Assembly (NCBI RefSeq): GCF_000967915.1
Contig: NC_022549.1
Span: 1,166,366 to 1,230,365 of the forward strand
Direction of reading: 5' to 3'
Source: Paracholeplasma brassicae
GTDB taxonomy: Bacteria; Bacillota_I; Bacilli_A; Acholeplasmatales; UBA5453
Length of the DNA: 64,000 bases
This document shows, in pieces, positions 29,682-33,078 of the stretch (position 1 is the stretch's first letter; every line of letters begins with the position of its first letter). The notes below the pieces were generated by a model. That model did not search any database. It was not told the origin of the DNA and was given only the letters and a program-made list of their open reading frames with translations. Made by a program: the position numbers and the translations under genes.

Positions 29682-30719
29682 TTAATTCCCTCTCTTTTGT
29701 ACAATTAAATAACAAATAAATCCATAAAGCATACCAAAATAATAGGTGATAAAACGCCAAACAAGCATTGAGGCAACGAGCATTGGATGACCAAGGCCTC
29801 TTAACAATGAAACGAAAATCACTGTAAATGCCCACTCAGTTCCGCCGGACGCCCCTGGGGTTGGCACCCACATCATGAAGGTTGTAGAAAATGCACTCAC
29901 AGAAATAACAAATGCTAAATCTGACGGTCCCAAATCAAATCCAAATCCCAAGAAAACGACGTATGGAATACTATTTAATAATAAGATACCTACTACCCTA
30001 AGCATGGTTGCACCAATAAAGACTCGCTTACGTTTAAACAGTAAACCCATCCCATGTTGGAAGTCTTTAACAAACGAAAATGTCTTTTCTTCTAAAGACT
30101 TCATTCTCTTAGTCAAAAACTTGATTTTACCTAAAAGTCTAAAAATACCTTCAAATAATTTATGCATTTTTGGTAAAACAGAAACAAGTACTAAAACGAC
30201 TAGGATAAGTAAGTTAATGGTATATCCAATCATGATTAAAAACATATATTGATTTAATATGTCTTTTACTTCTCTATAGAATAAAAGCAAGCCAACGGTT
30301 GAAACAACTGTCATTACCGTTTGATAAACAATGAAATTAGTCATAAGAATCGATATCGTTTGATCCCCTGAAACGCCTTTTTTATGCAATAAATAGCCTT
30401 GGATGGGTTGTCCACCTGAGGCAAATGGTGTAATTGCGTTAAAAAAGTATTCCGATCCTGCAATTGTTAGGCTATCTTTCTTCTTCAGCCGCACACCTAG
30501 CCCTGAGGCGATAAAGTGAAGCGTGAACGATGAGACCACCATATGTAACAACGAAATCACTAGACCAATGATAATGTATAATGGGTCAGCTTTTGTTAAT
30601 GCTTGTTTGATTTCATTGATGTCATTTAAACTAAAGACTATGACTAATAATCCAATCAGTGTGATTAAAACAAAAAATAGATTACCCGCTATTTTTCGTT
30701 TAGACGTTTCTTTCTTCAT
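29682..30719 (-). CDS. UPF0104/LPG-synthase-type transmembrane protein
   Basis: A 345-residue protein with about eight membrane helices. It contains the family blocks ASGGQPIQGYLLHKKG near residue 100 and PTPGASGGTEWAFTV near residue 285. This is the flippase-like domain of lysyl-phosphatidylglycerol synthase, here without the catalytic domain, so it is thought to move or flip a lipid. Its place between argS and the glycosyltransferase, with 1-base junctions, suggests it works with the glycolipid enzyme. Confidence 0.85.
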   Translation of the reverse strand: MKKETSKRKIAGNLFFVLITLIGLLVIVFSLNDINEIKQALTKADPLYIIIGLVISLLHMVVSSFTLHFIASGLGVRLKKKDSLTIAGSEYFFNAITPFASGGQPIQGYLLHKKGVSGDQTISILMTNFIVYQTVMTVVSTVGLLLFYREVKDILNQYMFLIMIGYTINLLILVVLVLVSVLPKMHKLFEGIFRLLGKIKFLTKRMKSLEEKTFSFVKDFQHGMGLLFKRKRVFIGATMLRVVGILLLNSIPYVVFLGFGFDLGPSDLAFVISVSAFSTTFMMWVPTPGASGGTEWAFTVIFVSLLRGLGHPMLVASMLVWRFITYYFGMLYGFICYLIVQKRGN

Positions 30720-32239
30720 TACATTTCTTCGAGTGCTGTCATCCCAAGTAAGCGCATGCCTTCATTTAGTACGTATCGAATGGCACGAATTAAATTAAGA
30801 TTGGCTTGTTTAGTGACTTCATCTTCGACAATGATTTTGTGTTGTCCGTAAAATTGATTAAAGTTTGATGACAATTGTAATAAGTATCTAGAGACAACGT
30901 GCGGTCCATTTTGTTCTGCCGCTTTCGTTAATACTTGATTAAACTGGGCTAAGTCTTTAATCAACTGAAAGTAAAGATCCCCTTCGTAAATCGATGAATC
31001 AAATGAATCTAAGACCGTTTGATTCTTTAAAATTGAAGCGATACGAACACTTGAATATTGTAAGTAAGGGCCAGTTTGTCCTTCAAACGCAAGCATTTGA
31101 GACAAATTGAAGTCGACTTCTAAATTGCGGTCGTTTTTCAAATCATTAAAGATGATCGCACCAATACCAACCGCTTTAGCAACCGATTCTTGGTTTTCGA
31201 GGTTTGGATTTTTAGCAAGTATTTGATTTTTCGCTTCTTTGATGGCTTCTTGAATCACATCATATAGTTTGACGACTTTGCCTTGTCTTGTCGACATTTT
31301 CTTACCGTCTTGTAAAACCAAACCGAAATTAACGTGTTTAATGTCAAAGTCATAACCCATCAAGTTAGTAACGGCTTTAAGTTGTTCAAAATGTAGTTTT
31401 TGTTCGTTTCCAACCACATATAATACTTGATCGAAATCATACGTTTTTTTACGGTAAAATAACGCTGCTAAGTCTCTTGTAATGTAGAGGGTTGCACCAT
31501 CTCTACGCTTGATTAATGCCGGTGGTAGTGGATCAAGTCGGACAATCATTGCCCCATCGTCTTCCACTAAAAGATTCTTTTCTTCAATCATTTGCACAAT
31601 GGGTTCCATCTTGTCGTTGAAGAATGCTTCACCATCATATGAATCAAACGAGACATTTAACAGTTCATACATCATCATAAACTCTTTTAGTGACTCTTCT
31701 CTAAAATACTTCCATAAGCTTAAAACGTCTTCGTCGTTATCTTCTAAAGACTTAAACACCGCTCTTGCGTCGTCTTCCAGGCTAGGGTTTTGTTCTGATT
31801 CTTCGTGAAACTTCACATATAGTTTTTGAAGTTCTGTGATTGGATTTTGTTCTACCAACTCTTTGTTTCCCCATAAACGATAAGCCACAATCATTTTTCC
31901 AAATTGAGTGCCCCAGTCACCTAAGTGATTGATCCCAACCACGTTGTAACCAAGTTTACGGTAGATATTTTTTAACGCGTTTCCGATCATTGTTGATCTT
32001 AAATGACCAACCGAGAAACTTTTTGCGATGTTAGGTGCGGAGTAATCAATACAAATGGTTTTGCCTTTTGATGCTTCTTGAGCGTAGGTTTCTTTTTCCT
32101 TATTAATCGTCTTGATGACTTCATTAGCAAACATGGCTCTATTTAAGTCAATGTTTAAAAAACCATTCATAAAGGTTGCGCTTTTGATCATTGATATGCC
32201 TTTTAATGCGTCTTTGATTTCCTCTGTTAATTCTGGCAT
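30719..32239 (-). CDS. argS: Arginyl-tRNA synthetase, main part
   Basis: The 506 residues cover the catalytic and anticodon-binding domains: FSVGHLRSTMIGNALK (HIGH region) near residue 75, the KMSTRQGKVV loop near residue 305, and a DALR domain ending RLLGMTALEEM. The normal enzyme is about 550 residues; the missing N-terminal part is encoded just upstream in another frame (32244-32384). If translation began here at ATG 32239 there would be no ribosome site, only a run of A. See the finding on the split. Its stop overlaps the flippase start (TAATG). Confidence 0.88.
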   Translation of the reverse strand: MPELTEEIKDALKGISMIKSATFMNGFLNIDLNRAMFANEVIKTINKEKETYAQEASKGKTICIDYSAPNIAKSFSVGHLRSTMIGNALKNIYRKLGYNVVGINHLGDWGTQFGKMIVAYRLWGNKELVEQNPITELQKLYVKFHEESEQNPSLEDDARAVFKSLEDNDEDVLSLWKYFREESLKEFMMMYELLNVSFDSYDGEAFFNDKMEPIVQMIEEKNLLVEDDGAMIVRLDPLPPALIKRRDGATLYITRDLAALFYRKKTYDFDQVLYVVGNEQKLHFEQLKAVTNLMGYDFDIKHVNFGLVLQDGKKMSTRQGKVVKLYDVIQEAIKEAKNQILAKNPNLENQESVAKAVGIGAIIFNDLKNDRNLEVDFNLSQMLAFEGQTGPYLQYSSVRIASILKNQTVLDSFDSSIYEGDLYFQLIKDLAQFNQVLTKAAEQNGPHVVSRYLLQLSSNFNQFYGQHKIIVEDEVTKQANLNLIRAIRYVLNEGMRLLGMTALEEM

Positions 32240-32243
32240 TTTT

Positions 32244-32384
32244 TTATTTTAATGTCTTTGCAATTGCAAAAAGTGGCACTGCGATGTCCGCATTCCCACG
32301 TTTTGGTTCTTCTACCACGACATTATCTAAGTGATACAATTCTTCGATTATTTGTTTAATCTCTAGTTTTAATTTTAAAATCAT
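32244..32384 (-). CDS. argS: Arginyl-tRNA synthetase, N-terminal part (frameshifted)
   Basis: A 46-residue frame starts with ATG after GGTGA and ends in TAA within an A-rich run. It reads VVVEEPKRGNADIAVPLFAI and AKTLK, which is the start of the ArgRS additional domain (VExPKxxxxGDxAxPLAxxLAKxLK). Removing one A from the AAAA before TAA joins it in frame to MPELTEEI of the main part. This is therefore the missing start of argS, separated by one frameshift. Confidence 0.8.
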   Translation of the reverse strand: MILKLKLEIKQIIEELYHLDNVVVEEPKRGNADIAVPLFAIAKTLK

Positions 32385-32411: not shown

Positions 32412-32434
32412 AAAAAAAGCACGCGAGTGCTTTT
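32412..32434 (-). terminator. Terminator of the thioredoxin-like gene
   Basis: AAAAGCAC-GCGA-GTGCTTTT with T-rich ends. It lies 7 bases past the stop at 32441. Confidence 0.8.
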
Positions 32435-32440
32435 CATTTT

Positions 32441-32974
32441 TTATTCAACGTCAATCTTTGAAAAGAATGCTCTAATTTGTGCAGCGGTTGAACCAGAATT
32501 TTCTGATGCTCTATCAGATACTTTTGCACCTTCGTTAAAGAAATAAACTTTAGGTGTTGCGTTTAGTTCAATGCTGTATTTGGTTTGTAACTTTGTAATG
32601 TTTGAGTCTGAGACTTTTGTTGCCTCTAAATAATAAATGTACTTCAGTGAATCTTGTAACCCTGCATTTTTGAATTCAAGGTCATAATACCCGATTTCGG
32701 ACACACAGTAAGCACAGCCGGTATAACCAAAATAAAATACCACTGGTTCTTTACTGTCGATTTTTTTGATTAAATCGTTAACTGAAATGGTTTTAAAGAC
32801 GTGATCTTCAACCAAGTTCGTTGATCCTGCGGATGAATATGCTTTGTAGATTTTCTTTTGATCATTTGGTTGTAATAAAATGATTAATGCCACAAAAATG
32901 GTAATGACTAAACCCACAATAATTAAATTAAGTGGTTTCACTGTAACTTTTGGATTTTTATATGATTTTTTCAT
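32441..32974 (-). CDS. Membrane-anchored thioredoxin-like protein
   Basis: The 177-residue protein has a signal anchor (residues 15-35) and an extracytoplasmic thioredoxin fold. The active site is FGYTGCAYCVSEI (CxxC) near residue 80, and the cis-proline is in ATPKVYFF near residue 140. It likely oxidises, reduces or isomerises disulfides in surface proteins. The start at 32974 follows AAAGGAG by 8 bases; the frame continues to 33016 without a site. Transcribed divergently from glgA. Confidence 0.83.
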   Translation of the reverse strand: MKKSYKNPKVTVKPLNLIIVGLVITIFVALIILLQPNDQKKIYKAYSSAGSTNLVEDHVFKTISVNDLIKKIDSKEPVVFYFGYTGCAYCVSEIGYYDLEFKNAGLQDSLKYIYYLEATKVSDSNITKLQTKYSIELNATPKVYFFNEGAKVSDRASENSGSTAAQIRAFFSKIDVE

Positions 32975-33078
32975 GTATATTTCTCCTTTAAAATCGCTAA
33001 ACTTATTATAACACAACCAAAAGGTTATATCAATTTAAATTCTTGAATTTGTGACTGATTTTAGAATCGCTTTCTAAC

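Follow-up and report, generated by a model that had tools for sequence, protein, structure and literature searches.

One surplus base in the published sequence most likely accounts for the split argS gene of Paracholeplasma brassicae

How can argS, an essential gene, appear as two separate reading frames in the chromosome of Paracholeplasma brassicae? In the window (the whole stretch of 64,000 nucleotides analysed here), the open reading frame listing placed argS on the minus strand as 46 codons followed by 506 codons, in agreement with the initial annotation. The first part (32384-32244) starts with an ATG at 32384, ends with a TAA at 32246-32244 and matches residues 1-48 of the intact arginyl-tRNA synthetase (ArgRS) of relatives. 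The remainder (32239-30719), with an ATG at 32239, encodes the rest of the N-terminal domain, the catalytic domain and the DALR anticodon-binding domain. Profile searches with the 506-residue part returned the catalytic domain PF00750 (3e-92), the anticodon-binding domain PF05746 (2e-25) and the argS equivalog TIGR00456 (437 bits, cut-off 261.65). Since the two parts follow on from each other within a single ArgRS, the split is not due to chance. The ribosome-binding site that had been noted for the first part is that of the ordinary argS start; no Shine-Dalgarno-like sequence was found before the 506-codon frame. Between argS and the upstream gene (32441-33016, minus strand) lies a terminator-like hairpin at 32415-32434, which the scan lists on the plus strand as a consensus match only; when read on the minus strand, the palindrome likewise has a run of T after it (GCTTTTTTTG). 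The next gene after argS encodes a 345-residue protein of the LPG_synthase_TM family (29682-30719, minus strand), and its ATG overlaps the argS stop codon as TAATG, which suggests translational coupling. A literature search found nothing on this argS.

The two frames meet at TTAAAATAAAAAAATG, read as the codons ACA TTA AAA TAA AAAAATG. The break itself, AAAATAAAAAAA (A4-T-A7; 32239-32250, minus strand), consists of an A4 run (32250-32247), a single T (32246) and an A7 run (32245-32239), so that four bases separate the TAA of the first part from the ATG of the second. Direct fusion of the frames is possible in only three ways: by loss of one base from A4, which joins them as ...AKTLNKKMPELTEEI..., by loss of the T, which joins them as ...LKKKMPEL..., or by ribosomes shifting +1 at AAA-UAA to the same effect. 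The surplus base had been placed at about 32247-32250, and this position held up: it most likely lies in A4, where one base fewer fuses the frames, and the nearest relative (L003) has AAACAAAAAAA at this site. Reading through the joint restored a match to PF03485, the N-terminal domain, over residues 5-80 (40.5 bits against a cut-off of 21.5), which was absent from profile searches with either piece alone. Because this domain straddles the joint, the break divides it in two. By its domains the protein is a class I arginyl-tRNA synthetase (ArgS), with PF00750 and PF05746 both found and PF03485 recovered in the read-through only. After read-through it agrees with an ordinary bacterial ArgRS (TIGR00456) in domains, length, domain order and gap-free alignment, but the record has one base too many.

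Comparison with relatives pointed the same way. The 12 other family genomes tested all had an argS open over its full length (553-567 codons), including the closest relative, L003 (74% identical). Aligned with the intact relatives, the read-through ArgRS showed no gap where the parts meet (AKTLNKKMPELTEEI versus VKQLNKKMPELVEEI in L003). At the nucleotide level, L003 has TTAAACAAAAAAATG where the window has TTAAAATAAAAAAATG (AAA-C-A7 versus AAA(A)-T-A7), and the window is thus longer by exactly one base. The putative start codon of the 506-codon part corresponds to an internal methionine codon that is conserved in 6/6 congeners. These observations bear on the proposal, also made in the initial annotation, that the enzyme consists of two chains, with the 46-residue peptide complementing the 506-residue chain. 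Both pieces are open and bear no sign of decay, as this proposal would have it. The cut, however, falls inside a small domain and would halve it, none of the 12 family relatives shares the arrangement, and the second chain would have no ribosome-binding site and would begin at what is otherwise an ordinary conserved internal methionine codon. We therefore regard a two-chain ArgRS as scarcely credible.

A second argS elsewhere in the genome had been offered as a further way out. A search of the complete chromosome (1,877,792 bases in one contig, estimated 99% complete) yielded a single PF00750 match, which is the split gene itself, and a compensating copy was rejected. The first 46 codons are under protein-level constraint similar to that in the intact relatives (pN/pS of 0.36-0.62 versus 0.28-0.52), and no decay of this part was seen in this comparison. 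Such constraint excludes an old loss of the reading frame, but is compatible with a very recent mutation. The culture that was sequenced might have gained the extra base through a genuine, recent insertion and tolerate it, as some enzyme would continue to be made, either by re-initiation or by spontaneous frameshifting at a low level. Re-initiation would use the ATG that lies four bases past the stop and would yield an ArgRS lacking the first 48 residues; it is possible in principle, as this stop-to-ATG spacing permits it, and the 506-residue piece holds all catalytic and anticodon-binding parts. Runs of A are, in addition, prone to mutate; among the real mutations of A+T-rich genomes, indels in such runs are also the most frequent kind, which counts against reading the base as an error. 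On the other side stand the lack of decay in the first 46 codons, the missing ribosome-binding site ahead of the second ATG and the cost that such a mutation would carry in a single-copy argS, as well as breaks in the same context elsewhere in the genome (see below), which indicate a shared technical cause. On balance, a recent insertion appears unlikely, but it is the chief alternative to a sequencing error.

If the surplus base were a real feature of the gene, the cell would depend for its only ArgRS on a +1 frameshift at AAA-UAA or else on re-initiation that leaves out half of the N-terminal domain, and we consider this general possibility highly improbable. One form of it is programmed +1 frameshifting like that of the release factor RF2 gene (prfB), in which ribosomes stalled at a slow stop codon would advance by one base and go on translating in the frame of the 506 codons. 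The split argS shares with prfB a short first reading frame, a stop codon at the shift point and a main frame in the +1 position, so that the direction of the shift would be the same, and read-through would give a perfect ArgRS. In prfB, however, the shift occurs at a conserved CUU-U (PMC5009743), as opposed to AAA-U here. Neither CUU-U nor an upstream Shine-Dalgarno-like stimulator is found in GCAAAGACATTAAAATAA at the argS break, there is no significant RNA fold downstream of it (z = +1.8), and the two-frame arrangement occurs in 0/12 family relatives. Moreover, we know of no reason for ArgRS to sense a release factor. Programmed frameshifting of this kind would thus be extremely improbable.

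Transcriptional slippage in the A-rich run could likewise be imagined to repair the frame in some of the mRNA, as A-runs promote slippage of RNA polymerase (PMC5574713). For the A7 run this is ruled out by geometry: the UAA is formed by the T together with two A from the start of A7, so it stays in place at every run length, and slippage there is unable to fuse the frames. It would have to occur in A4, which is a short run, and its probability is close to negligible. Slippage at AAAATAAAAAAA, raised in the initial annotation, thus breaks down on the geometry of A7, and no element that is conserved or stimulatory was found for it.

Frame breaks elsewhere in the genome were surveyed by tblastn in both directions between 440 kb of this genome and about 1.46 Mb of a congener (G004), with a homologue at ≥40% identity required, which gave about 198 conserved loci here and about 194 in the congener. 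Three genuine breaks were found among the former: argS, a MetN-like ABC ATPase gene with a NIL domain (C1:1062170-1063133, outside the window; break at A6-C-A7) and a CpsB/CapC-type PHP phosphatase gene (C1:1378699-1379408, outside the window; break at A4-G-A7), the latter two likewise in two frames. All three sit at an A(4-6)-X-A(7) site. Counted over both strands, the 440 kb contain only 14 such sites (about 0.04% of the bases), a figure that is illustrative, since the motif was defined after the cases had been seen. No true frame break was detected among the roughly 194 loci of the congener in the reverse comparison. Three further flags were judged spurious upon sequence inspection: two in the congener, one being a copA/copZ gene-fusion difference and the other an open reading frame overlapping a tRNA, and a third in this genome, where 21 and 26 residues of a single open reading frame matched weakly. 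The recurrence of breaks in the same context argues for a common technical cause.

Several further features were seen in the course of these comparisons. One 886-residue open reading frame (C1:1007889-1010546, outside the window) encodes a P-ATPase of the copper type that carries an additional HMA domain, CopZ-like, at its C terminus; as the two are separate frames in the congener, either the genes have fused or this locus holds a further indel. A 215-residue open reading frame (C1:1377958-1378602, outside the window), which lies directly downstream of the split phosphatase gene, has repeated EEQGCGCGGHHHHHDE-like units that are rich in Cys and His and perhaps bind metal. Among 80 further argS loci of a genome collection, one, in the draft record L181 ('Ca. 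Phytoplasma pruni' CX), had a frame break around positions 965-1030, in an A-rich stretch of the N-terminal domain. It lies at nearly the same place as the break studied here, but is of opposite sense, and L177 and L183, its sister records, have an open frame there; it thus lends no support to a shared mechanism.

What, then, could have added a base at this site? The genome of Acholeplasma brassicae O502 was sequenced by a combination of Sanger and 454 pyrosequencing (PMC4221730). Carry-forward errors of the 454 method insert the base of an upcoming homopolymer, with at most two bases in between (Huse et al. 2007, PMC2323236), and the argS junction has just this form: an extra A, then one T, then A7, compared with AAA-C-A7 in L003. 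As in the known errors, there is one surplus base, it is the letter of the coming homopolymer and one base away from it, and the method is the same. The present case differs in that the base persisted in a finished genome for which Sanger data were available too. Further points speak against an error: Sanger coverage of the genome should have mended some homopolymer errors, and the run to which the surplus base belongs has just 4 letters, which makes it easier to call than A7. Nevertheless, a sequencing error, one of the options listed in the initial annotation, is the best supported among these, given the single copy of argS, the intact gene in relatives, the sequence of L003 that is shorter by one base, a read-through that is free of gaps and restores PF03485, and further breaks in the same context. 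We infer that this particular A is most likely such an error. The A would have been miscalled beside A7 by 454 pyrosequencing as a carry-forward type insertion and left uncorrected in the finished genome, and the living cell would make one continuous ArgRS of 554 residues.

Altogether, argS of this organism is very probably an ordinary single-copy gene, whose published sequence holds one surplus A from 454 base calling. Were the base real, a single-copy essential synthetase would rely on recoding or re-initiation. As it is, the split is probably a matter not of biology but of the record, where a reference genome has an essential gene that appears broken and at least two more genes in 440 kb bear the same mark. 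Extrapolated from the 3 breaks in about 198 loci, false splits may affect a few tens of the genes in this reference.
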